Source: Prevotella sp. (GTDB lineage Bacteria > Bacteroidota > Bacteroidia > Bacteroidales > Bacteroidaceae). From it: a stretch of DNA of 33,567 nt. Location: assembly GCA_017934525.1 (NCBI GenBank), contig JAGBJJ010000034.1, positions 1 to 33,567 of the forward strand, read 5' to 3'. Below, one piece after another: positions 19,199 to 32,623 of the stretch. Under the pieces are notes generated by a model, which ran no database searches, was not told the origin of the DNA, and saw only the letters and a program-made list of their open reading frames with translations. Every line of letters starts with the position of its first letter. Within the stretch, counting starts at the first letter, position 1. Position numbers and translations under genes: made by a program.

Positions 19199-21229
19199 TT
19201 AGCGGAACAGCACTTTCTTCTGGTTCACGATGTAGAGGCGGCCGTGCTGGGGATTAGTCACCTTGCGGCCGTCGAGTGTGTAGATGGTGGCGGCGCGGGC
19301 ATGGTCGGCCGAAGGCTGGCTGATGGCGGCGGTGGCGTTGCCGACGAGGCCGTCCTTGGTGTAGTAGCCACCGTTCTCGAAGCTGAGGTCAGCCGTCTGG
19401 GGCGCGCCGTTGTTATTGAAGATGATTTTGGCAGGCTGCGTTGCCGACGTGTTGTTCTGCTTCGTGCCGTCCCACGTCCATTTCCACACATTGTTGCCGT
19501 TGTTGGCGGTGCCCAGCAGGGTGCAGGCAACTCCGGGCCAGCCCTTGGTGGCATAGGTGAAGTTGTCGGCAGGCTGGTCAGTCCATGCCCAGCAGTGTAT
19601 GGTGTTGCCCCACGTGGCGGGTGCTTCGAAGAAGGCGCACACCTCGCCGTCGGCGACTGTGCAGAAGGAAGGAATCTCCACGGGCTTCTCCTCCTCTTGC
19701 TCCTTCACGACCAGCGTGCTGCTGACCACGCCGCTCACCTGTCCTCCGATGAGCAGCCCGGCTTTGAGGATGGTGGTGCCGACGGGGATGTGCAGGCTGT
19801 AGCCGCTCTCTACGGCCGTGCTTTGGGCCGTGGGCGTGGAGCCGTCGGTGGTGTAGACCACGCGGGCGCCCTCAGCATTGGTCACGGCTGAGAGTGTGGC
19901 GGTCTGCTCACCCACGTAGGTGCCTGACGGCAGACTGATGTAGGCCGTCTGCATTGCGGTGGAGAGATAGTAGGCGTAGTGATAGCCCGAGAGCACTCTT
20001 GTCCACTCCTTGGCATCGGGGACGAAGCGGTTGGTGCTGCCCACCACCACCTGCAGTTTGTCGTCGACGCTACAGGCATAGACCCACTGCAGCATGGCCG
20101 TTGTCTGGTAGGTGCTCTCATTGTGGATGCCGGCAGCCTTGCGGGCAGCCACCATGGCCTTGATTTCGGCGGGGTATGCCTGCCAGTGCTTCAGGAAGAC
20201 GCAGGGCGTGCCGGGCATGGCCAGCAGATAGGCGTTGGCAGCCAGCGTGTCCTTCTTCAGCGGGTCCTGCTCGGCGTTCTGGCGTCGCTCGGTGTCGTGG
20301 TTCTCAACGAATGTCACGGCATAGCGTCGATACTTGCCGTCGTCCTGGCTGTTGCTCACCAGCGGCCAGTTGCCGTCGTTCTGCTGTGCGAGTCTGTTCC
20401 ACGAGTTATTGTTCATGGCATTGCGCACGGTGTAGCGGAACTGGAAATCGAAGGCAGCGCTCTGAATTTGGTTGTCTGTCTTCGTGCCTTCAATCCAGTT
20501 TTTGATGGTCGTCGTGCCGTCCCAGCACTCGCCGACGCTGAACTCTGGCTGGGCCGACGCGTTGTATAGGCCCGTGAAGCGAGCGGCGTAGCCCTTCACC
20601 ATGTCGTAGCGGAAACCGGCATAGCCCAGGTCGTTCTTCAGGAAGTCGAGATAGGCCATCACCGTCTGCTGCACGTTCTCGCTCGTGTGGTCGAGGTCGC
20701 GCATGCCGCCCCATCCCTCGCCGGTGTCGTTGGCACCCAGGGTGACGCCCAGACGGTCGGCTTCGGCCTTCGCTTTGCCGTCGTCGTCGTTGGCGCAGAC
20801 GTCAGAGGGCCCCATGGTGTAGGTCTGCCCTTTGTAGGTCTCGGTGGGGAATCCGAACCAGCCGTTCAGACTCTTGCGGTGGTTGATCACCACGTCGGCA
20901 ATGGTCTTGATGTTCTTCTCTTTGAGGGTGCTGATGAGTGTGCGCAGCTGCTGCTCGTTGCCGAAGGAGCTGTTGTAGTCGGAAAACCAGTAGAGGTCGT
21001 CGTAGCCCATGGAGGTGCCGCCACAGTTGCCGCTCTGCGGCAGCCAGACGAGGTCGAATGTGCCGCTCAGCTCGTCGGCCTTCGACTGGAGCACGGCCCA
21101 GTTAGTGTCGTCGAAGGAGTCCCAATAGAATGCCTGCAGCATGACGCCGCCATAGCGTGAGGGCCAGCCCTGTGCGTGCATGGCCGTGAAGGCGGCAGCG
21201 GCTAATAACAGAAAAAACAGTCTTTTCAT
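19199..21229 (-). CDS. Secreted GH13 alpha-amylase with starch-binding module and T9SS-like tail
   Basis: This 676-residue enzyme hydrolyses internal alpha-1,4 bonds of starch. A signal peptide ends at MHAQ (residues 17-20). GH13 regions are complete: DVVINH (112-117), GFRYDMVKG with nucleophile Asp209, VGECWDG with acid/base Glu234, and VENHDTER with Asp312. After the catalytic part come a chitobiase-like Ig segment (VYTTDGSTPTAQS) and a starch-binding-like region with Trp repeats (WAWTDQPADNFTYATKGWPG). The end, IYTLDGRKVTNPQHGRLYIV, looks like a type IX sorting tail, so export may depend on the PorU/PorV system. The ATG at 21229 gives a clean signal peptide 7 bp after the preceding gene; the one at 21253 would overlap that gene. 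Confidence 0.92.
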   Translation of the reverse strand: MKRLFFLLLAAAAFTAMHAQGWPSRYGGVMLQAFYWDSFDDTNWAVLQSKADELSGTFDLVWLPQSGNCGGTSMGYDDLYWFSDYNSSFGNEQQLRTLISTLKEKNIKTIADVVINHRKSLNGWFGFPTETYKGQTYTMGPSDVCANDDDGKAKAEADRLGVTLGANDTGEGWGGMRDLDHTSENVQQTVMAYLDFLKNDLGYAGFRYDMVKGYAARFTGLYNASAQPEFSVGECWDGTTTIKNWIEGTKTDNQIQSAAFDFQFRYTVRNAMNNNSWNRLAQQNDGNWPLVSNSQDDGKYRRYAVTFVENHDTERRQNAEQDPLKKDTLAANAYLLAMPGTPCVFLKHWQAYPAEIKAMVAARKAAGIHNESTYQTTAMLQWVYACSVDDKLQVVVGSTNRFVPDAKEWTRVLSGYHYAYYLSTAMQTAYISLPSGTYVGEQTATLSAVTNAEGARVVYTTDGSTPTAQSTAVESGYSLHIPVGTTILKAGLLIGGQVSGVVSSTLVVKEQEEEKPVEIPSFCTVADGEVCAFFEAPATWGNTIHCWAWTDQPADNFTYATKGWPGVACTLLGTANNGNNVWKWTWDGTKQNNTSATQPAKIIFNNNGAPQTADLSFENGGYYTKDGLVGNATAAISQPSADHARAATIYTLDGRKVTNPQHGRLYIVNQKKVLFR

Positions 21230-21236
21230 GAGGATG

Positions 21237-22577
21237 TCAGTCGTTAGGTTCAAAAATAAGATATTCGTAGGCTGCCAGATTAAGCGTCTGGCCCAGCTTG
21301 AGGTTGCGGCCGGTTATTTCGTCTTCCACCTTCATCCCAGCCCATGTGGAGGGGATGTCGGCCACGACGGGCCGGTTGCGCACGTTGACCACCACGAGGA
21401 AGCGCTCGTCGCCCAGACGCTTCTCGAACACCAGCGCGTCGGCGGCCGGCCAGACCTCGAGTTCGCCCTTGCGCAGGGCGGGATGGTCGTTGTAGAGTTT
21501 GATGAGCTCTTCATACTCCTTGTAGAGTTGCGGGTTGGCCGTCCAGTCGACGGCGACGTAGTGGAAGAAGTTGATGGGGTCGGGGTAGCCCACCTCCTGC
21601 GAACCGTAGATGAGGGCGCCGCCGTGGAGGAAGACCGAGGCTACGTAGGCGGCCATCGAGCCGCGCTCGTTGATGAACTCCTTGACGGGTGTCTTCTCCG
21701 TGGAGTGGTCGTGGTTGGTGGTGAAGCGCAGCTTGACCTTGCCGGCGGGCAGCTGGGCATACTCGGCGCTGTCGGCACGGAGGAGGTCGCTGGCGGGACG
21801 ACTGTTGCAGAAGACGTGTACGAGCGAGTCCTTGAAGTCCCAGCCGTAGTTCATGTCGAAGCCGCCCACGGTGAAGTTATCCACATTCTTACCCTCGGCC
21901 AGCATGACGATGCGGCGGGGCTGCGCAGCCTGGCGCAGCTCTTGGATGGCGTCGCGCCAGAAGTCGGCCGGCACACCGTCGGCCACGTCGCAGCGGAAGC
22001 CGTCGATGCCCACCTCTTTCACCCAGAAGAGCATCGCGTCGGTCATGGCGCGGCGCATGTCGCGGTTGTCATAGTTGAGGTCGGCCACGTCGAGCCAGTC
22101 CCAGGGGCGTGGGTGGATGATGGTGTCGGTCTCCTCGTCGTGGGTATACCAGTCAGGATGCTCCTTCACCCAGGGATGGTCCCACGCCGTGTGGTTGGCC
22201 ACCCAGTCGAGGATGATGCCCATGCCGTGATCATGGCACACCTGCACCAGGTGCTTGAAGTCGTCGATGGTGCCGAACTCGGGCGCCACGGCCGTATAGT
22301 CGCTGATGCAGTAGGGGGAGTTCTTGCCTTTCTCGAGGCCGATGGGGTAGATGGGCATCACCCACACCACGTTGACGCCCAGCTCTTGGATGGAGTCGAT
22401 GCGCTGTGCTACAGCATTCAGGGAGTTGCTGGGTGCAAAGACGCGTGGGTTGACCTGATACATGGCAATGTCGTCGACGGCTGGCAGCAAGAAACCGTCT
22501 GTGCCTTTTTGCTGCTTCGGTTCGCAGCCAGTCAGCATCATCATGATGCATCCTGCAAGGGCTAATAATTTCTTCAT
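21237..22577 (-). CDS. GH13 alpha-amylase lipoprotein, SusG-like
   Basis: The 446-residue protein is a GH13 alpha-glucan hydrolase anchored by lipid: MKKLLALAGCIMMMLTGCEP has a lipobox with Cys18. Conserved regions are DWVANH (124-129), GFRCDVADG with nucleophile Asp197, MLAEGKN with Glu228, and TTNHDHS with Asp290. Its place next to a Sus locus and its lipid anchor suggest the role of SusG, the surface amylase that cuts starch bound by SusD/E/F. It is much shorter than B. thetaiotaomicron SusG (about 690 residues), and no internal starch-binding insert such as CBM58 is apparent. It leads the three-gene unit ending in glycerate kinase. Confidence 0.9.
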   Translation of the reverse strand: MKKLLALAGCIMMMLTGCEPKQQKGTDGFLLPAVDDIAMYQVNPRVFAPSNSLNAVAQRIDSIQELGVNVVWVMPIYPIGLEKGKNSPYCISDYTAVAPEFGTIDDFKHLVQVCHDHGMGIILDWVANHTAWDHPWVKEHPDWYTHDEETDTIIHPRPWDWLDVADLNYDNRDMRRAMTDAMLFWVKEVGIDGFRCDVADGVPADFWRDAIQELRQAAQPRRIVMLAEGKNVDNFTVGGFDMNYGWDFKDSLVHVFCNSRPASDLLRADSAEYAQLPAGKVKLRFTTNHDHSTEKTPVKEFINERGSMAAYVASVFLHGGALIYGSQEVGYPDPINFFHYVAVDWTANPQLYKEYEELIKLYNDHPALRKGELEVWPAADALVFEKRLGDERFLVVVNVRNRPVVADIPSTWAGMKVEDEITGRNLKLGQTLNLAAYEYLIFEPND

Positions 22578-22606: not shown

Positions 22607-22614
22607 CAAAAATA
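22607..22614 (-). promoter_or_regulatory. Promoter -7 element of the amylase operon
   Basis: On the minus strand TATTTTTG fits TAnnTTTG. +1 is expected near 22603, giving a 25-nt leader. No TTG lies at the -33 spacing, consistent with a promoter that needs an activator. A LacI-type operator starts exactly 55 bp upstream. Confidence 0.6.
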
Positions 22615-22669: not shown

Positions 22670-22683
22670 TGCAATCGGTTGCA
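22670..22683. promoter_or_regulatory. LacI-type operator upstream of the amylase operon
   Basis: TGCAATCGGTTGCA is a near palindrome that matches the TGCAAACGTTTGCA core at 30051-30064 in 12 of 14 bases; all ten outer bases are the same. It lies upstream of, not on, the -7 element, at the same 55-bp gap seen at susC and lacI. Confidence 0.65.
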
Positions 22684-24307: not shown

Positions 24308-25225
24308 TTATAAAATTACAAACTTCACAGTGCTGGCATTCATGTCGATGGTGATTTCGAGGTCGCCACCGGGGAAGCCGTTGAACTGCCATGAGCCCTT
24401 GCCGCTGACATACTTGTCGGCGAAGCTGCCGTCGGCGCTGAAGGTGCATTCGGTAGCCTCGTCGTTGACTTTGTGGCCAATCGATGCGCCGCCATCCCAG
24501 CCTGTCAGCTTGGTGTAGAAGCGGAAGGTGAGGTCGCCTGCCTCAATCTTGAAGGTGCCTTTGTATATCTTACTGCCTATTTCGGTCTCGTAGATAATCC
24601 AGGGTTCAAGCGCTTCGGCATTGGCTGCACTGGGCTCTTTCCATCCACCGCAGCTGCCGATGAGCCAGATGGTGCCGATGCCTTTCACTGCGTTATAGGC
24701 AGCCATGTGCTTGAAGGTGACGTAGTTAGAAACAATCTCAGTGCCAGGCACCACCTCGTTTGAGGCGTTCCTGATGGTCGAACGAACGCGCATGGCAATC
24801 TCGCGGACGCCCTTGTCGACGTATTCCTCGGGGGTTCCGAAGCCGTCAATCTTGCAGATAGCCTCGGCAATCTCGTCGCCGCTGATGTTGACGTTGCACT
24901 CGTTGAAGTTGGTGTCCAGATAGATGGGCTTGCCGTCCTCGTCGGTGAGCCATTTCACGTTGCCGTTGTCGACCACACCCACCTGAATCTCGTAGGTGGC
25001 AATGGCATTGTAGACATAGTTGGGCTGCGACCATGTGAGGTTGACTTTGTTGTCGGCCGACAGCTGGATGAACTGCTCACTCATGGCCGGCGTGTTCAGC
25101 ACGAACTCCGTGGGAGCATTGTCCGGTCCGATGACGGGGTTGTCGTCGCGGTCGGTGTCGCATGCGTTGAACAGCATGGCAGCCATAGCAAGGAACAATC
25201 CGCTTCTCAAATATTTTGTTTTCAT
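24308..25225 (-). CDS. SusE-like outer membrane starch-binding lipoprotein
   Basis: The 305-residue protein has a lipoprotein signal (LFLAMAAMLFNAC, lipobox Cys22). An N-terminal SusE-type Ig domain follows, with the pattern EFVLNTPAMSEQFIQLSADN and LTWSQPNYVYNAIATYEIQV. The second half holds one beta-sandwich module, starting near GTIWLIGSCGGWKEPS, with aromatic residues suited to glucan binding. This is shorter than SusE of B. thetaiotaomicron (about 390 residues), which carries two binding modules, so one module appears to be missing. The gene sits between the SusD-like and SusF-like genes. Confidence 0.83.
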   Translation of the reverse strand: MKTKYLRSGLFLAMAAMLFNACDTDRDDNPVIGPDNAPTEFVLNTPAMSEQFIQLSADNKVNLTWSQPNYVYNAIATYEIQVGVVDNGNVKWLTDEDGKPIYLDTNFNECNVNISGDEIAEAICKIDGFGTPEEYVDKGVREIAMRVRSTIRNASNEVVPGTEIVSNYVTFKHMAAYNAVKGIGTIWLIGSCGGWKEPSAANAEALEPWIIYETEIGSKIYKGTFKIEAGDLTFRFYTKLTGWDGGASIGHKVNDEATECTFSADGSFADKYVSGKGSWQFNGFPGGDLEITIDMNASTVKFVIL

Positions 25226-25290: not shown

Positions 25291-26880
25291 TTAATAACCA
25301 TCGTTCTGCTTGAGGTTCGAGTTGGCCATGATGTCACTTGAAGGAATGGGATAGAGGTTGAACTTGCTGTCTACGGCCTTGGGCGAGCCGTTGTTGCTGT
25401 TCATGCCTTTGTAAGCCCAGATGTACTTCTTGGTGGTCAGCATGCCGAAGCGCACCAGGTCGCTGCGGCGGTGGCACTCCCAGGCCAGCTCGCGGCCACG
25501 CTCGTCGATGACGTCGTTGCTGCTGGCAGCTACCAGCGCATCGATGCCGGCACGAGTGCGAATCTGGTTGAGGAACCACAGACCGTCGTGACCGTTCACG
25601 TTGACATTGACGCCGCCGACAATCTGGCATTCAGCCAGCATCAGGTAGACGTCGGCCAGACGGAACATGGGGAAGTCTGTGTCGGGGAAGGAGTTGGCGC
25701 CGTCAATCATCAGTCCGTTGGCCTTCAGGTTGGTGAACTTCTTGAAGGCGTAGCCGTTCTCGAACGTGCTCAGGTCGGCGATATCCTTGGTCTGTCCGTT
25801 GGTGTAGAACTTGGCGCGCTGATCCTTGGCTGCATCAAACTTGTTGACGAATTCAGGAGTCAGGCGAATACCACCCCAGCCATTGCCGCCCAGACCGAAG
25901 TCGGCTGCAGGGTCGGCCTTGCCGCCGCAGGCAGCGTTGATGATGTAGGTCGTGCCGCCGTAAGCCTGGGTGTAGATGTGGTCCTGATAAACGCTGAAGA
26001 TAATCTCGTGGCCCAGGCCCAGCATCTGGTCGTTGTCGGCACAGAACATCTTGTAGTAGTCATCAGCCGACTCAAGCGTGTAGCCCAGGTTGATGATGTC
26101 CTGACAGTACTCTGCACACTTGGCGTAGTTGGCCGTGCCGGTGTAAACCTCTGCATTCAGATAGAGTTTGGCCAGCAGCATGTAGGCCAGACCCTTGCCG
26201 GCGCGATACTTCTCGGGGTCGGCAGGAAGAATCTTGGTGATGTCTTCCAGTTCGGTAACCAGCCAGTTGAAGAGGTCGGCGCGCTTTATCTGTTCGGGGT
26301 TGGCACCGCCCACCTTCGAGTTTTCGTCGGTGAAGGGCACGTTGCCGAACATGTCGATGGCGTGGTAGTAGCTCAGAGCGCGCAGTGCACGGGCCTCAGC
26401 GCGGTACTGCTGCATCTTGGCGTCGTCAGCAAAGCTGCTCTCGTCGATGCGGCGAATCACTTCGTTGCAGATGGAGATTTGGTAGAACAGGCGGGCATAG
26501 GCAGCCGTGACGAAAACGTCGTTGGTGCTCCAGCACAGGCCGTGCAGGTCCTTGATGGTCTGGTCGTTCCATCCCATCACCACCTCGTCGGTGGGGAGTT
26601 CTTCCAGATTGAACAGTGCGCGAAGGTATTGACCGAATCCGCCGTCGATTGACTTGATGTCAGGATCGCCGCTTTCGCCGTCAGGCGAGCTGACGGACAG
26701 AGCAGAGTAGCATTTGGCCAGAAGTTGATTGAAGGCCTCGGGCGACGTCAGCATATTCTCCGGCAGATCAAGATTCGGATCGATGGGCGTGACGTCCAGG
26801 TCGCCCGTGCATGCCGTAAACGACAGCGTCGTGGCCAGGGCAACCGTGTAAAAACCGTTTTTCAATATATTCTTTTTCAT
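25291..26880 (-). CDS. SusD/RagB-family nutrient-binding lipoprotein
   Basis: The 529-residue product is the SusD-type lid of a SusC channel; it captures glycans and delivers them to the transporter. The lipoprotein signal ends at SFTAC (Cys24). Diagnostic SusD stretches are FNQLLAKCYSALS, YARLFYQISICNEVIRRID, the TPR-like RAEARALRALSYYHAIDMFGNVPF, and the C-terminal LADVYLMLAECQIVGG with RTRAGIDALVA and ELAWECHRRSDLVRFG. Length is normal. Context with SusE/F-like proteins and amylases points to starch or maltodextrin as ligand. It follows susC by 19 bp. Confidence 0.95.
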   Translation of the reverse strand: MKKNILKNGFYTVALATTLSFTACTGDLDVTPIDPNLDLPENMLTSPEAFNQLLAKCYSALSVSSPDGESGDPDIKSIDGGFGQYLRALFNLEELPTDEVVMGWNDQTIKDLHGLCWSTNDVFVTAAYARLFYQISICNEVIRRIDESSFADDAKMQQYRAEARALRALSYYHAIDMFGNVPFTDENSKVGGANPEQIKRADLFNWLVTELEDITKILPADPEKYRAGKGLAYMLLAKLYLNAEVYTGTANYAKCAEYCQDIINLGYTLESADDYYKMFCADNDQMLGLGHEIIFSVYQDHIYTQAYGGTTYIINAACGGKADPAADFGLGGNGWGGIRLTPEFVNKFDAAKDQRAKFYTNGQTKDIADLSTFENGYAFKKFTNLKANGLMIDGANSFPDTDFPMFRLADVYLMLAECQIVGGVNVNVNGHDGLWFLNQIRTRAGIDALVAASSNDVIDERGRELAWECHRRSDLVRFGMLTTKKYIWAYKGMNSNNGSPKAVDSKFNLYPIPSSDIMANSNLKQNDGY

Positions 26881-26899: not shown

Positions 26900-29800
26900 T
26901 TAGAAGTTAAGGCTTACACCGAGCAGGTAAGTGCGCGGCCGGGGATACATGTTATTGTCGATACCGCCGGCAACCTCAGGATCGAGTCCGTCGTAGTCGG
27001 TGATGGTCAGCACGTTCTGAGCTGTGAAGTGCACGCGTGCCCAGTCGCAGAGTTCATAGGCCAGAGTGACTTTGTCAAGCTTGAAGAACGAGGCGTTACG
27101 CACGTAGTAGTCGCTGATGTAGCGAGCCTGCGAGAAGTTAGAGTAGGGAGCCGATGACACGCGGTTCGAAATGAAGTTGTTGGTCCACATGTCGGCAATC
27201 ATCTCGCCGTCGGATGCCACGTTGTTGTAGACGTAGTTGTTCAGGTTGGCGCGGGCCGAGGCCGACAGCGTCCAGCGCTTATAGTTCAGCTCGGTGTTCA
27301 GACCGAAGGTCACGTCGGGATCGGGTTTGGTGTAGATGTAGCGGTCGTAATCGTCAATTTTGCCATCGGCGTTGCGATCCACGAACTGGTTGTCGATAGG
27401 CTTGCCGTTCTGGTCGTACACCTGCTGGTAGACCCAGAACGAGTTGATGGGATGACCGACGCTCTGCAGCTGCACCATGTTGTCCACACCGCCGGAGATG
27501 CCGCCGGTGCGCACACCGATGTAGGAAGGATCGTCGATGGCCGTCAGCTTGGTAATCTCATTCTTGTTATAGGCAAAGTTGACGCCCACTTCCCAACGCC
27601 AGTCTTTGGTCTGCACGGGCACCACATTCAGTGCCACCTCAATACCTTTGTTCTCCATGTTGCCGACGTTTCTGAGCAGCATGTCGACGAGGTTCGTGCC
27701 GTTGACGACGGGGATGGTGTTCAGCAAGTCTTCGGTCTTACGCTTGTAGACGTCGATACTACCGTTGATGCGGTTCTTCAGGAAACCGAAGTCAAGTCCG
27801 ATGTTATAGGTTGTGGTCTCCTCCCACTTCAGGTCAGCGTCGTAACCCTTCGGCGAGATAGGGATGATGAGCTTGTCGCCGAACATGTAGTATGAACCGA
27901 GCTGGTTGATGTGATAGGTTGCAATCGAAGGATAGTCGCCCTGACCGATGTTCTGCTGACCGGTGATACCCCAGCCCAGACGCAGCTTCAGGTTCGACAG
28001 CCAGTCGACGTTCTTCAAGAAGCCTTCCTCATTGATGCGCCATGCCAGAGCCACCGAGGGGAATAGACCCCACTTGTTGTTCTGGAAGCGCGAGGTGCCG
28101 TCGCGACGGATGGTGGCGGTCAGCAGGTAGCGGTCCATCAGGGTGTAGTTCAGTCGGCCGAAGAAGGAGACGAGATAGCTCTCGGTCTTGAACAGCGGCG
28201 TGGTGGCATACGGCGTGTGGTTGCCGTCGTTCGACTCCTTGTAGTCAGTCGTCTTGTTGAAGAAGTGCTGCCATGAGTAGCCAGCCATCAGGTCGAAGCG
28301 GCTGGCGATAGCCTCCAGCTCTTTGGCATAGTCGAGATAGAACTCCAGGGTCTGGTCGCGGCGCAGCTGGGTGTACTTCTCCCACAGGCCGGCTCCGTTT
28401 TGTGTCTTGTCGTGATAGGAAATCTCGCTCTGGTAGTCAGTCACGTTGTAGCCGTTTGACGTCGAGATGTCGAGACCGAGGTTCAGGTTGGCGCGCAGAC
28501 CGGGCACATACTTGAACTTATAGTCGAACTGGGCGTTACCCACGAAGCGGCGCACGTAGGCGTTCTTCTGCTGCTGAGCCAGCTGTGCCAGCGGGTTGAG
28601 CACCGACATGGTGTTGGGTGCGCCGTTGGTCTCCCAGCGGGTGAAGTCGTTCACGGGGCGAGCTGTGTGGTCGAACACCACGTCGCGGTGCTGATAGGGC
28701 GGCAGCATGGGGTTATACTTTACGGCAGCGCCGATGGCGCCGTTGTCAGCAAAGCGGTTGTGAGTGAACACACCCTTGCCATTGAGGCTGATGGTCAGGC
28801 GGTCGTCGAGCAGCGTCGGGGTCAGGTTCAGACCGACGGTTCCGCGCTCCATGTCATTGGTGCGCAGGATGCCCTCCTGGTCCAGCCAACCAGCCGACAG
28901 GCGGTAAGGCATCTTGAAGGTCTTAGCCTTGTTCTGTATGCCACCAGAGACACTGGCGTTGGTCTCCGACGAGAGGGCTGTGCGATAGATGAGGTCCTGC
29001 CAGTCGGTGTTGTAGACGGGGTTGCCGTTGGCATCCACCGGTCCCAGGGCAGCCACGGCGTCGGCCTTGTCGCCATAGTGCTCCATGAAGAATTTCTGCA
29101 GGCCGTAGGCGTCGAGCACGTCGACCGTCTCGCGCACCTGCTGCAGCGAGGTGTTCATGTCGAGCGTCACCTTGGGTTTGCCCGTGGCGCCCTTTTTGGT
29201 GGTGATGACGATCACACCGTTAGAAGCGCGCGAACCGTAGATGGCCGTAGCCGAGGCATCCTTCAGGATGGAGAAGCTCTCAATGTCGTTGGGGTTGATG
29301 GTCGACAGCACGTCGCTCGAGCCCGAGATGCCGGTTCCGCTGATGGGCAGACCGTCGATGACGATCAGAGGGTCGTTGCTGGCTGACAGCGACGAGCCGC
29401 CGCGGATGCGGATGGTTGAACCGGCACCGGGCTGACCGCTGTTGCTGGTGATGGTCACACCGGCCGACTTGCCCTGGAGCAGGTCTGCAGGCGATGTGGC
29501 GAAACCCTTGCCCAGCTGGTCGGCTTCAATCGATTGTACCGAACCGGTGGCATCGCTCTTCTTCACTGTACCGTAGCCGATGACCACGATGTCGTTGAGC
29601 ACCGTCAGGTCGTCCTGCAGCGTCACTTCCACCGTGGGGGCGGCCTTCACTGTGGCAGCCTGATAGCCCATGAAGGTGACTTGGAGGTCGGCTCCGCGAT
29701 TAGCCTGCACGGTGAAGTTACCATTGAAGTCGCTCACCGTGGCCGTCTGGGTGCCCAGCACGCGCACGGTAGCTCCGATGATGTCTTCGCCAGCAGCATC

Positions 29801-29911
29801 TTTCACATGACCTTTCACAGTAATCTGTGCAAAGGCTCCCGCGCTTAGCATCATGCCCACCATGAGGACGAGCATTCTAAGCGGAAACTTAATGTTTACT
29901 TGCTTCATCAT
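26900..29911 (-). CDS. SusC/RagA-family TonB-dependent transporter
   Basis: The 1003-residue protein is an outer membrane TonB-dependent channel for oligosaccharides, paired with the SusD lid. It has a signal peptide (MLVLMVGMMLSAGAFAQ), a carboxypeptidase-regulatory-like domain (TVKGHVKDAAGEDIIGATV), and a TonB-box-like segment at DIVVIGYGTVKKSDATGSV. The plug contains IRIRGGSSLSASNDPLIVIDG and the SusC/RagA signature AIYGSRASNGVIVITTKKG. The rest is a 22-strand-type barrel ending in YPRPRTYLLGVSLNF, with a terminal Phe. Length is typical of SusC. Two ATG codons in a row start the frame. It heads the operon and is divergent from the regulator gene. Confidence 0.95.
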   Translation of the reverse strand: MMKQVNIKFPLRMLVLMVGMMLSAGAFAQITVKGHVKDAAGEDIIGATVRVLGTQTATVSDFNGNFTVQANRGADLQVTFMGYQAATVKAAPTVEVTLQDDLTVLNDIVVIGYGTVKKSDATGSVQSIEADQLGKGFATSPADLLQGKSAGVTITSNSGQPGAGSTIRIRGGSSLSASNDPLIVIDGLPISGTGISGSSDVLSTINPNDIESFSILKDASATAIYGSRASNGVIVITTKKGATGKPKVTLDMNTSLQQVRETVDVLDAYGLQKFFMEHYGDKADAVAALGPVDANGNPVYNTDWQDLIYRTALSSETNASVSGGIQNKAKTFKMPYRLSAGWLDQEGILRTNDMERGTVGLNLTPTLLDDRLTISLNGKGVFTHNRFADNGAIGAAVKYNPMLPPYQHRDVVFDHTARPVNDFTRWETNGAPNTMSVLNPLAQLAQQQKNAYVRRFVGNAQFDYKFKYVPGLRANLNLGLDISTSNGYNVTDYQSEISYHDKTQNGAGLWEKYTQLRRDQTLEFYLDYAKELEAIASRFDLMAGYSWQHFFNKTTDYKESNDGNHTPYATTPLFKTESYLVSFFGRLNYTLMDRYLLTATIRRDGTSRFQNNKWGLFPSVALAWRINEEGFLKNVDWLSNLKLRLGWGITGQQNIGQGDYPSIATYHINQLGSYYMFGDKLIIPISPKGYDADLKWEETTTYNIGLDFGFLKNRINGSIDVYKRKTEDLLNTIPVVNGTNLVDMLLRNVGNMENKGIEVALNVVPVQTKDWRWEVGVNFAYNKNEITKLTAIDDPSYIGVRTGGISGGVDNMVQLQSVGHPINSFWVYQQVYDQNGKPIDNQFVDRNADGKIDDYDRYIYTKPDPDVTFGLNTELNYKRWTLSASARANLNNYVYNNVASDGEMIADMWTNNFISNRVSSAPYSNFSQARYISDYYVRNASFFKLDKVTLAYELCDWARVHFTAQNVLTITDYDGLDPEVAGGIDNNMYPRPRTYLLGVSLNF

Positions 29912-29987: not shown

Positions 29988-29995
29988 CAAAGATA
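29988..29995 (-). promoter_or_regulatory. Promoter -7 element of the susCDEF operon
   Basis: On the minus strand TATCTTTG fits the -7 consensus. +1 is expected near 29984, a leader of about 73 nt. No TTG is seen at the -33 spacing. The LacI-type palindrome core starts exactly 55 bp upstream. Confidence 0.7.
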
Positions 29996-30049
29996 TGTTT
30001 ATTTTAATGATGTTGTACTTTTTTTCGTTTAAATTCGTTATATAGGTAT

Positions 30050-30065
30050 ATGCAAACGTTTGCAT
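30050..30065. promoter_or_regulatory. LacI-type operator between susC and the regulator gene
   Basis: ATGCAAACGTTTGCAT is a perfect 16-bp palindrome with the central CG and the GCAAACGTTTGC core typical of LacI/GalR-family binding sites. It sits between divergent promoters, with 55 bp on each side to the susC -7 element (29995) and the lacI-type gene -7 element (30120). Confidence 0.85.
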
Positions 30066-30098
30066 CATCGCGCGCGAAGAAATAAAATAATGTGCGGC

Positions 30099-30127
30099 TT
30101 TGCGTTGCGAAGTTTTCCTTATCTTTG
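30099..30127 (+). promoter_or_regulatory. Promoter of the LacI-family regulator gene
   Basis: TTTG (30099-30102), 17 bases, then TATCTTTG (30120-30127) match both elements. +1 near 30131 leaves only about six bases before the first usable ATG at 30137. The palindrome lies 55 bp upstream of the -7 element, so the gene is probably autoregulated. Confidence 0.7.
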
Positions 30128-30136
30128 CACAGGCAA

Positions 30137-31177
30137 ATGGAGAATGAAGAGATGAAAGAAAATACCGTCATGACAATGAAAGACATCGCCCGCGAGCTCC
30201 ACGTCTCGGTGGCCACGGTATCGCGTGCGCTGAAAAACTCGCCGCGCATCTCGCAGGAGCAGCGCGAGCGCATTCAGCAGTATGCGCGCCAGCACAACTT
30301 CACGCCGAACGTGCTGGCCGAGTCGCTGCGTTTGTCAAGAGTGCAGCCGGTGAAGATTATCGGCGTCATCATGCCCGAGCTGGTTCACTACTATTTCTCC
30401 ACCATCCTGAAGGGCATTGAGGAAGAGGCCGAGGCCCGCGGCTACCGCATCATGGTGGCCCAGAGCGGCGAGCGGTACGAGCGCGAGGTGCGCCTGTGCC
30501 AGTTGTTCTATGAGAACAAGGTGTGCGGCATCATCGTGTCGCAGGCCAAGGACACTCACCGCTACGAGCACTTCCAGCGACTGATGGATGCCGGCGTCCC
30601 TCTGGTGTTCTACGACCGCATCTGCACCGGCGTGAATGCCAGTCGTGTGGTGGTCGACGACTACACGGGAGCCTTCAACGCTGTGAGCCACCTCATCGAG
30701 ACGGGCTGCCGCCACATTGCCTTCTTTGGGTCGCAGATGAACCTGGAGATATCGAAGAACCGTTTCAATGGCTACAAGGATGCACTCCTGAAACATGGCC
30801 TTCGCTTCGACGAGCGTCTGGCGCAGGTGTGCGACAATCGGTCGGATGCCGAGTTGCTCACGCCGTCGCTCTTCGACGAGGAGCCCTATCCCGACGGTTT
30901 CTTCGCCGTCAACGACGACACGGCCATAGGCATACTCTACACAGTGAAGCGCATGGGGCTGCGTGTGCCTGAAGACGTGAGCATCTGCGGTTTCACCAAC
31001 GGCGAGCGCGCCACGGCCTGCGACCCGATGCTCACCACGGTAGAGCAGCGTGGCGTCAGGGTGGGTGAGGAGGCCGCCAACATCCTCATCGGCCACGTAG
31101 AGGGCACCATCCCCGAGGGCCACATTGAGCGCCGTATTGTCCGCACGAGGCTCATAGTCCGCGGGACGACGCGGTGA
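30137..31177 (+). CDS. LacI-family transcriptional regulator, probable starch-system regulator
   Basis: The product is a LacI/GalR-type regulator of about 346 residues. The helix-turn-helix MKDIARELHVSVATVSRAL starts about 14 residues in, with the hinge region LAESLRLSRVQPVKIIGVI after it. The effector domain is of periplasmic-binding type, with PLVFYDRICTGVNASRVVVDD, HIAFFGSQMNLEISKNRFNG, PDGFFAVNDDTAIGIL and VSICGFTNGERATACDPMLTTV. The start is uncertain: ATGs at 30137, 30152, 30170 and 30176 all keep the HTH, and the first fits the promoter best. Its likely targets are susC, its own gene and the amylase operon, given the shared operators. The effector may be a maltodextrin or glucose derivative; this is inferred. 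Regulator and MFS genes are 72 bp apart. Confidence 0.9.
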   Translation: MENEEMKENTVMTMKDIARELHVSVATVSRALKNSPRISQEQRERIQQYARQHNFTPNVLAESLRLSRVQPVKIIGVIMPELVHYYFSTILKGIEEEAEARGYRIMVAQSGERYEREVRLCQLFYENKVCGIIVSQAKDTHRYEHFQRLMDAGVPLVFYDRICTGVNASRVVVDDYTGAFNAVSHLIETGCRHIAFFGSQMNLEISKNRFNGYKDALLKHGLRFDERLAQVCDNRSDAELLTPSLFDEEPYPDGFFAVNDDTAIGILYTVKRMGLRVPEDVSICGFTNGERATACDPMLTTVEQRGVRVGEEAANILIGHVEGTIPEGHIERRIVRTRLIVRGTTR

Positions 31178-31249: not shown

Positions 31250-32623
31250 ATGAAACAAAAACCTGACTTGTCGTTTTGGAAGCTCTGGAACCTGAGCTTC
31301 GGATTCTTCGGAGTGCAGATAGCCTATGCACTCCAGAGTGGAAACGTGTCGCGCATCTTCCGCACGCTCGGTGCCGACCCGCATAACCTCAGCTATTTCT
31401 GGATTCTGCCCCCGCTGATGGGCATGATAGTGCAACCCGTCGTGGGCACCCTCAGCGACCGCACCTGGACCCGCTTCGGCCGCCGCATACCCTATCTCTT
31501 CGTCGGCGCCGCCGTGGCCGTAGCAGTGATGTGCCTGCTGCCCAACAGCGGTTCGCTCGGTCTGTCGGTGTCGGCCGTGATGATGTTCGGTCTCGTCATG
31601 CTCATGCTCCTCGACACCAGCATCAACATGGCCATGCAGCCCTTCAAGATGCTCGTGGGCGATATGGTCAACGAGCGGCAGAAGGCCAAGGCCTACAGCA
31701 TCCAGTCGTTCCTGTGCAACGCTGGCTCGGTAGTGGGCTTCCTCTTCCCCTTCATCTTCACCGCCATCGGCCTGAGCAATGTGGCGCCCGAGGGCATCGT
31801 GCCCGACTCGGTCATCTGGTCGTTCTACATCGGCGCGCTGATTCTAATCCTTTGCGTCGTCTACACCGTCGTCAAGGTACGTGAGTGGCCCCCGAAGGAG
31901 TATGAAGAATATAATGGGAAGACCACCCATTCGTCATCCTCTTCCGCCAGTAAGACTATAGAAGCCCCCTCTGAGGCCGCAGGAGATACCACCTCCAACT
32001 GGTTCACCCTCCTTCGCAAGGCCCCTGTCACCTTTTGGAAAGTAGGTCTGGTGCAGTTCTTCTGCTGGGCCGGCATGCTCTACATGTGGACCTATGTCGT
32101 CGACGCCGTGTCGCTCACCGTCTGGGGCACAGCCGACGCCGCCACCGAAGACTATCAGGCAGCCGGCAACTGGACGGGCGTGCTCTATGCCATCCAGGCC
32201 ATGGGCTCCGTGGTGTGGGCCACGCTGCTGCCGCGCTTCAAGAATGTAAAGATGGCCTATAGCGTCAGTCTGGTGCTGGGTGGCCTGGGCTTCCTGCTCA
32301 TCCCCTTCTGTCCCGACAAGTATCTGCAGATACTGCCCTTCCTGCTCATCGGTTGCGGCTGGGCCGCCATGCTCGCCATGCCCTTCACCATCGTCACCAA
32401 CGCCCTGCAGGGCTACGGTCACATGGGTACCTATCTGGGACTCTTCAACTGCACCATCTGCCTGCCGCAAATCATCGCCGCCGTGCTGGGCAAGCCCATC
32501 ATGCACCTCGTCGGCGGTTCGCAGACGTCGATGATGCTCGTTGCCGGCGTGCTCTTCGTCATCGGTTCGCTCTGCGTCTTCACTATCCAGGAGCGACGCA
32601 GCACTGCCGCTGCAGCGCAGTAG
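31250..32623 (+). CDS. MFS sugar permease, SLC45/maltose type
   Basis: The 457-residue integral membrane protein has about twelve hydrophobic segments in two halves, separated by a Ser-rich polar loop near residues 220-245 (THSSSSSASKTIEAP). The N-terminal half has the MFS signature PVVGTLSDRTWTRFGRRIPY between helices 2 and 3. The opening LSFWKLWNLSFGFFGVQIAYALQ and the motif NMAMQPFKMLVGDMV are typical of the proton-linked sucrose/maltose SLC45-like permeases found near Bacteroidota starch loci. It would carry maltose or a short maltodextrin from the periplasm into the cell. It follows the regulator gene on the same strand with no obvious own promoter. Confidence 0.88.
   Translation: MKQKPDLSFWKLWNLSFGFFGVQIAYALQSGNVSRIFRTLGADPHNLSYFWILPPLMGMIVQPVVGTLSDRTWTRFGRRIPYLFVGAAVAVAVMCLLPNSGSLGLSVSAVMMFGLVMLMLLDTSINMAMQPFKMLVGDMVNERQKAKAYSIQSFLCNAGSVVGFLFPFIFTAIGLSNVAPEGIVPDSVIWSFYIGALILILCVVYTVVKVREWPPKEYEEYNGKTTHSSSSSASKTIEAPSEAAGDTTSNWFTLLRKAPVTFWKVGLVQFFCWAGMLYMWTYVVDAVSLTVWGTADAATEDYQAAGNWTGVLYAIQAMGSVVWATLLPRFKNVKMAYSVSLVLGGLGFLLIPFCPDKYLQILPFLLIGCGWAAMLAMPFTIVTNALQGYGHMGTYLGLFNCTICLPQIIAAVLGKPIMHLVGGSQTSMMLVAGVLFVIGSLCVFTIQERRSTAAAAQ

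Follow-up and report, generated by a model that had tools for sequence, protein, structure and literature searches.

Most characterised LacI-family proteins repress transcription, and starch is a main food of rumen and gut Prevotella. Among the closest described regulators, CcpA belongs to the LacI/GalR family and shares with the system considered here a palindromic site upstream of the -35 region, and from such upstream cre sites at ackA, pta and ilvB of Bacillus subtilis it activates in a helix-face-dependent manner (PMC3463425), although it is a global regulator that mostly represses and works with HPr-Ser-P. The enterobacterial Cra/FruR is likewise a LacI-family protein and is described as both repressing and activating (PMC4052901), but it is a central carbon regulator. 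SusR of Bacteroides thetaiotaomicron activates susC-type starch genes on maltose; however, it is a membrane protein of another family, and its motifs are direct repeats with a long spacer (PMC3878776). KdgR, UxaR, UxuR and UxmR of Bacteroides are LacI-family proteins of the same order, but they serve uronate pathways, and in the main text of the study describing them the word activator is absent, and no spacing rule for the four came to light (PMC3878776). Searches of the open-licence literature yielded no account of starch genes being activated by a LacI-family protein, whether in Prevotella or in Bacteroidota at large, and no paper on how starch use is switched on in Prevotella, the model in Bacteroides being SusR.

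Here we analyse a window of 33,567 nucleotides of Prevotella sp. DNA, in which a gene for a LacI-family regulator (lacI) and a susC gene are divergently arranged around one palindrome. Compared with CcpA, the Prevotella regulator looks local and devoted to starch, with single sites, near-uniform spacing and TAnnTTTG promoters, and it fails the CcpA model; compared with SusR, the locus has a LacI-type protein and a palindrome adjoining susC. To our knowledge, no such uniform spacing is known for Cra/FruR. Comparison across genomes makes it likely that this LacI-family protein switches on its own gene along with a starch regulon from a fixed upstream site, probably via the alpha C-terminal domain of RNA polymerase.

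The regulator and its divergent promoters

The regulator carries an N-terminal LacI helix-turn-helix domain (PF00356, E 9e-16, residues 13-58) and a sugar-sensing periplasmic-binding-protein-like domain (PF13377, E 2e-32; PF00532, E 4.6e-25), and the presence of both a DNA-binding and a sugar-binding domain places it in the LacI/GalR family. As these domains cover the protein, it is not of the SusR type. It passes no curated NCBIfam cut-off, reaching 145 bits under the CcpA model TIGR01481 with its cut-off of 442, while its best solved-structure match is CcpA (1rzr, 3e-38), with Cra weaker (7doa, 3e-22). With most orthologs the alignment begins around residue 4-6 of the longest reading, which favours the start at 30152 over that at 30137 (Table 1), and the closest named loci, from Prevotella and Prevotellaceae MAGs, encode regulators 83-85% identical. 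The MFS transporter gene 3' of lacI is probably co-transcribed with it.

Table 1. Genes and predicted regulatory elements in the window
Feature	Position	Strand	Details
GH13 alpha-amylase gene with CBM26	19199..21253	-	overlaps the GH13 gene at 21237..22577
GH13 alpha-amylase family gene, first of its operon	21237..22577	-	Pfam
Amylase operon -7 box TATTTTTG	22607..22614	-	exactly 55 bp from second operator; predicted start about 22602
Second operator TGCAATCGGTTGCA (predicted), upstream of amylase operon	22670..22683		2 mismatches; absent from the sequence-only reading
susE-like gene	24308..25225	-	Pfam SusE 6.6e-6
susD gene	25291..26880	-	Pfam SusD_RagB; NCBIfam SusD 8e-114, under cut-off
susC TonB-dependent transporter gene	26900..29911	-	TIGR04056 5e-234
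susC -7 box TATCTTTG	29988..29995	-	55 bp from operator; predicted start about 29983
susC spacer elements	30014..30025	-	A-tract 30019-30025; CA 30014-30015 at -20/-19 from box; no -33 TTG
LacI-type operator TGCAAACGTTTGCA (predicted), common to susC and lacI promoters	30051..30064		centre about -74.5 of each
lacI -7 box TATCTTTG	30120..30127	+	55 bp from operator; predicted start about 30132
LacI-family regulator gene	30152..31177	+	Pfam LacI 9e-16, Peripla_BP_3 2e-32; alternative start at in-frame ATG 30137
MFS sugar transporter gene, 3' of lacI	31250..32623	+	GPH_sucrose match under cut-off

The sequence-only reading had set the palindrome at precisely 55 bp from each of the two divergent -7 boxes and had found the susC promoter devoid of a -33 TTG; the coordinates were confirmed, and neither TTTG nor TTG stands 17-22 bp upstream of the susC box. 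The 55 bp run from operator edge to box, the palindrome centre being 62 bp away. On the lacI side a TTTG is present at 30099-30102 with a 17-bp spacer, and therefore, within the window, the missing -33 element concerns the susC promoter only. The motif TAnnTTTG is scarce in the window (16 on both strands together), and at this rate equal distances on either side of one palindrome, at any value from 40 to 70, have a chance of about 2e-6. In a profile over 111 loci, the predicted operator upstream of lacI is a palindrome with a central CG.

The -7 consensus TAnnTTTG and a -33 TTTG were deduced in B. fragilis, and the account that reports them did not find the -33 motif in Flavobacterium johnsoniae (PMC7366714). 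In Flavobacterium the TAnnTTTG box has been placed at -12 to -5 (PMC9723704), which together with the 55-bp gap puts the operator at -81 to -68, centred at -74.5.

Spacing at orthologous, unlinked and distant promoters

The lacI-upstream regions of 114 loci were compared, namely 30 ortholog loci (own included), four named MAG contigs and the next 80 listed loci, with one locus at a contig start skipped and weaker listed matches left out. In 105 of the 114 (own included), each side of the palindrome had a TAnnTTTG box at 54-56 bp, and when one side is counted the figures are 107 for lacI and 108 for susC; the variability of spacing among orthologs that the sequence-only reading had named as a refutation of its view, and had proposed to look for by comparing such loci, was thus not seen. 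The spacers themselves have a median pairwise identity of 0.35 on the lacI side and 0.44 on the susC side, which is near-random, and therefore their length is conserved and their sequence is not. From the lacI box to the projected gene start, the distance varies from -23 to 164 across loci. Nine loci break the two-sided rule: one is a short contig (L075), in two the core lies next to where the gene is projected to start (L069 and L091), two are without the lacI-side box (L099 and L133) and two without the susC-side box (L137 and L143), and in the last two (L140 and L142) the core was not found within 400 bp. Because orthologous promoters share descent and are not independent, the P-values given in this work are too small.

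The palindrome with its box also follows the regulator gene. By counts read by eye from the search tables, the combination is present in 123 of the 157 genus genomes that have a strong regulator ortholog (E 1e-115 or better), in 1 of the 14 whose match is weak and in 2 of the 29 lacking any match, so that strong-ortholog genomes stand against 3/43 for all others (P 4e-18); a reversed-pattern control gave 0 in the genus genomes searched for palindrome plus box. The 12-mer core alone is present in 145/200 genus genomes.

Within the own genome, five sites serve six starch promoters, those of susC, lacI, the amylase operon, a GH97 gene, a pullulanase-like GH13 gene and a GH77 gene, all at exactly 55 bp. 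None of 20 other near-palindromes of this genome (the six remaining with 2 mismatches and fourteen with 3, picked by eye among the matches listed) has a box at 54-56 bp. Places within 3 mismatches of the palindrome number 102, against 78 for the reversed pattern, and therefore most near-matches are fortuitous. With the genome at 77% completeness, some targets may also be missing from the assembly. The short core AAACGTTT was rejected as a general order-wide search, being too noisy outside the family among the matches listed; 5/6 of its own-genome matches lay at the 55-bp equivalent, and the GH97 and pullulanase-like sites were found in this way.

From the genus-wide 12-mer search, 54 unique palindromes among the matches listed (own included) were picked without regard to spacing, most lacI-upstream sites, already counted, and one contig-end place being left out. 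Within 200 bp to the left or right of them there are 55 boxes, of which 40 sit at 54-56, where a uniform spread would put about one; when the five lacI/susC sites are removed, the figure is 31 of 45. The binomial P of 1e-60 is too strong, because the genomes are related. An exact box at 54-56 accompanies 36 of the 54 palindromes and a 5-of-6 box 7 more, and of the 11 without box or near-box, 8 are without full T/C...A/G flanks. Leaving lacI and susC aside, 38 promoters have a box or near-box at that distance, and 30 of them lead genes of GH77 (15), GH13 (14) and GH97 (1), the GH77 gene behind L001 having been examined through locus L234; among the other eight, one leads a beta-lactamase-like gene, one a DUF3575 gene and one a gene without Pfam match, and five yielded no reading frame.

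Some individual sites deserve a word of their own. Real exceptions among the 54 palindromes are L160, L162 and L197. At L160:1501 and L162:1501, the palindrome is exact, a -7 box was not found at 54-56 bp, and the adjoining open frame, judged by its first residues, presumably resembles a sugar-nucleotide epimerase. In three genus genomes (L152:1501, with the same string in L159 and L177), the palindrome TGCAAACGTTTGCT and a -7 box at a distance of 56 bp precede a beta-lactamase-like gene; the palindrome is probably a chance match and perhaps, as a guess, lies on a mobile element.

Beyond the genus, core plus box was found in 18/201 genomes in the search of the family's other genera, 6 of these 18 belonging to the own genus, and in 41/344 genomes in the search of other Bacteroidales families, 2 of these 41 from the own genus. 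Spacings in the other families cluster near 44, 55 and 66 bp. Of the spacings outside 50-60, with repeats of a value within one family counted a single time, 16/21 belong to the intervals 43-45 and 64-67 (P 1.4e-4), and 19/28 when the own family's other genera are added (P 4e-4), the registers being those given by 55 plus or minus 10.5, the clustering noticed before the test and the spacings transcribed by hand. At the level of the order, a scan over periods has its maximum at 11-11.5 bp (R 0.64-0.65), not at 10.5 (0.62). Among 208 order genomes, 28 other-family matches lie at 40-70 bp, and the flanking spacings hold 12 scattered matches at 9-39 bp and 11 at 71-101 bp, with no clear register near 76 bp in the scan of 71-101 bp. 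A LacI relative of 38-61% identity accompanies 18 of 47 non-genus loci, some of which are the same site. Seven loci of other families (L242, L243, L253, L255, L256, L257 and L259) have the same operator beside susC-like genes at a spacing of 65-67 bp, one helical turn longer, with a LacI relative in each of them save L259. The phylum-wide search matched 6/233 genomes, own included, with six other matches at 41, 44, 45, 57, 63 and 67 bp; this search was uninformative, and the spacing rule is limited so far to the order Bacteroidales.

Promoter strength and mode of regulation

The palindrome promoters were compared with 138 control promoters, for which 40 segments of 20 kb were taken from nine genus genomes. 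A TTG 17-22 bp upstream of the box is present in 21/247 palindrome promoters versus 61/138 controls (P 8e-16), and a full TTTG in 8/247 versus 29/138 (P 6e-8); for the off-lacI targets alone, TTG is again depleted (6/32 versus 61/138, P 0.009), and the full TTTG does not differ (3/32 versus 29/138, P 0.21). Because the -33 TTG is seldom present, the target promoters look weak. An earlier set of 21 control promoters pointed in the same direction as the 138 for TTTG and CA.

Two features of the spacers were also recorded. The dinucleotide CA at -20/-19 from the box, found in the own susC spacer, occurs in 110/247 palindrome promoters (14/32 off-lacI) versus 6/138 controls and, sitting where TTG would otherwise be, is possibly an alternative -33 element; both it and the A-tract are frequent in orthologous susC promoters. 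Spacer A/T phasing beat the circular-shift null in all three promoter sets (0/1000 each). Relative to controls it was stronger in susC-side spacers (P 5e-5) and off-lacI targets (P 0.002), and lacI-side spacers showed no such excess (P 0.99), but it was rejected as specific evidence of an alpha C-terminal domain site, since the 138 controls share the register.

In class I activation, the activator contacts the alpha C-terminal domain from a site lying farther upstream than the core promoter (PMC4495994). The sites described here lie 54-56 bp from the -7 box, centred at about -74.5 and clear of the core promoter; they keep one register in the genus and cluster at about 44, 55 and 66 elsewhere, with the scan peak at 11-11.5, and their promoters are weak as judged by TTG, the difference in full TTTG not being significant when the 32 off-lacI targets are taken alone. 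An activator in contact with RNA polymerase needs its distance to be constant even where promoters are unlinked, or to change by steps of a helical turn, and a repressor does not; the spacings thus point to class I activation. The alpha C-terminal domain, PF03118, was not found in the own genome, which is 77% complete, and was found in a Bacteroides control.

Based on these findings, we propose that a LacI-family dimer would bind the palindrome centred at about -74.5 of both divergent promoters, and that the bound regulator would activate susC, and hence starch uptake, together with its own operon (lacI and probably the MFS transporter gene) in positive autocontrol. Single, identically spaced sites would confer activation on the amylase, GH97, GH77 and pullulanase-like genes. 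Activation would probably come about through recruitment or placement of the alpha C-terminal domain of RNA polymerase, and the ligand may be a malto-oligosaccharide. The sequence-only reading had suggested an activator, or a dual regulator, working from a fixed upstream distance, and this suggestion gains comparative support from the recurrence of 54-56 bp in orthologous loci and at unlinked starch promoters, and is also consistent with the scarce -33 element and the spacings of about 44, 55 and 66 in other families; its further view that the regulator controls its own gene would be in keeping with a lacI-side spacing equal to that of susC.

The same palindrome could be read in the manner most familiar for the family, as the seat of a classical repressor that would silence susC and lacI and be freed from the DNA by a malto-oligosaccharide, most characterised members being repressors. 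The maltose regulator of Firmicutes, MalR, is indeed named a repressor (PMC4052901). However, 55 bp separate the site from each -7 box, the distance holds to 54-56 bp on both sides in 105 of the 114 loci, a lone site offers no obvious loop, a fixed spacing at unlinked promoters would be unneeded, and the promoters to be silenced look weak already, with -33 TTG seldom present, all of which makes classical repression very unlikely.

A LacI-family protein may also act on another regulator, as CytR acts on CRP, and here it could block or aid a separate activator bound between site and promoter. Such repression from an upstream LacI-family site is on record, as CcpA blocks LevR at the lev operon of B. 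subtilis (PMC3463425), and therefore sequence alone does not fix the sign of regulation. The susC spacers, with their conserved A-tract and frequent CA at -20/-19, would offer room for such a partner, but the position profiles contain no second strong motif common to lacI, susC and the other targets, save CA at -20/-19 and generic A/T phasing, and we hold this arrangement to be slightly less likely again. That the palindrome is bound by another protein altogether, lacI being a mere neighbour, could draw on the bare 12-mer core, which is still present in 8/29 genus genomes without a regulator match; yet the operator has the central CG of the LacI type, and palindrome plus box follows the regulator gene (123/157, 1/14 and 2/29), which leaves this the least credible of the alternatives. 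Activation by the LacI-family protein from its fixed site is the reading that we retain.

More broadly, a Bacteroidales clade of LacI-family proteins, often divergent to susC, could be class I activators working from helically phased upstream sites (centres about -64, -74.5 and -85) that replace -33 recognition and perhaps SusR, with targets readable by spacing alone, a generalisation to which we give an even chance. If activation by a LacI-type protein from a constant distance holds true, a local activator would come from a family whose fame rests on repression; the rule of palindrome, 54-56 bp and TAnnTTTG would then find starch promoters from sequence, a natural inducible promoter for Prevotella would be suggested, and the contact of an activator with the RNA polymerase of this phylum would become directly testable.
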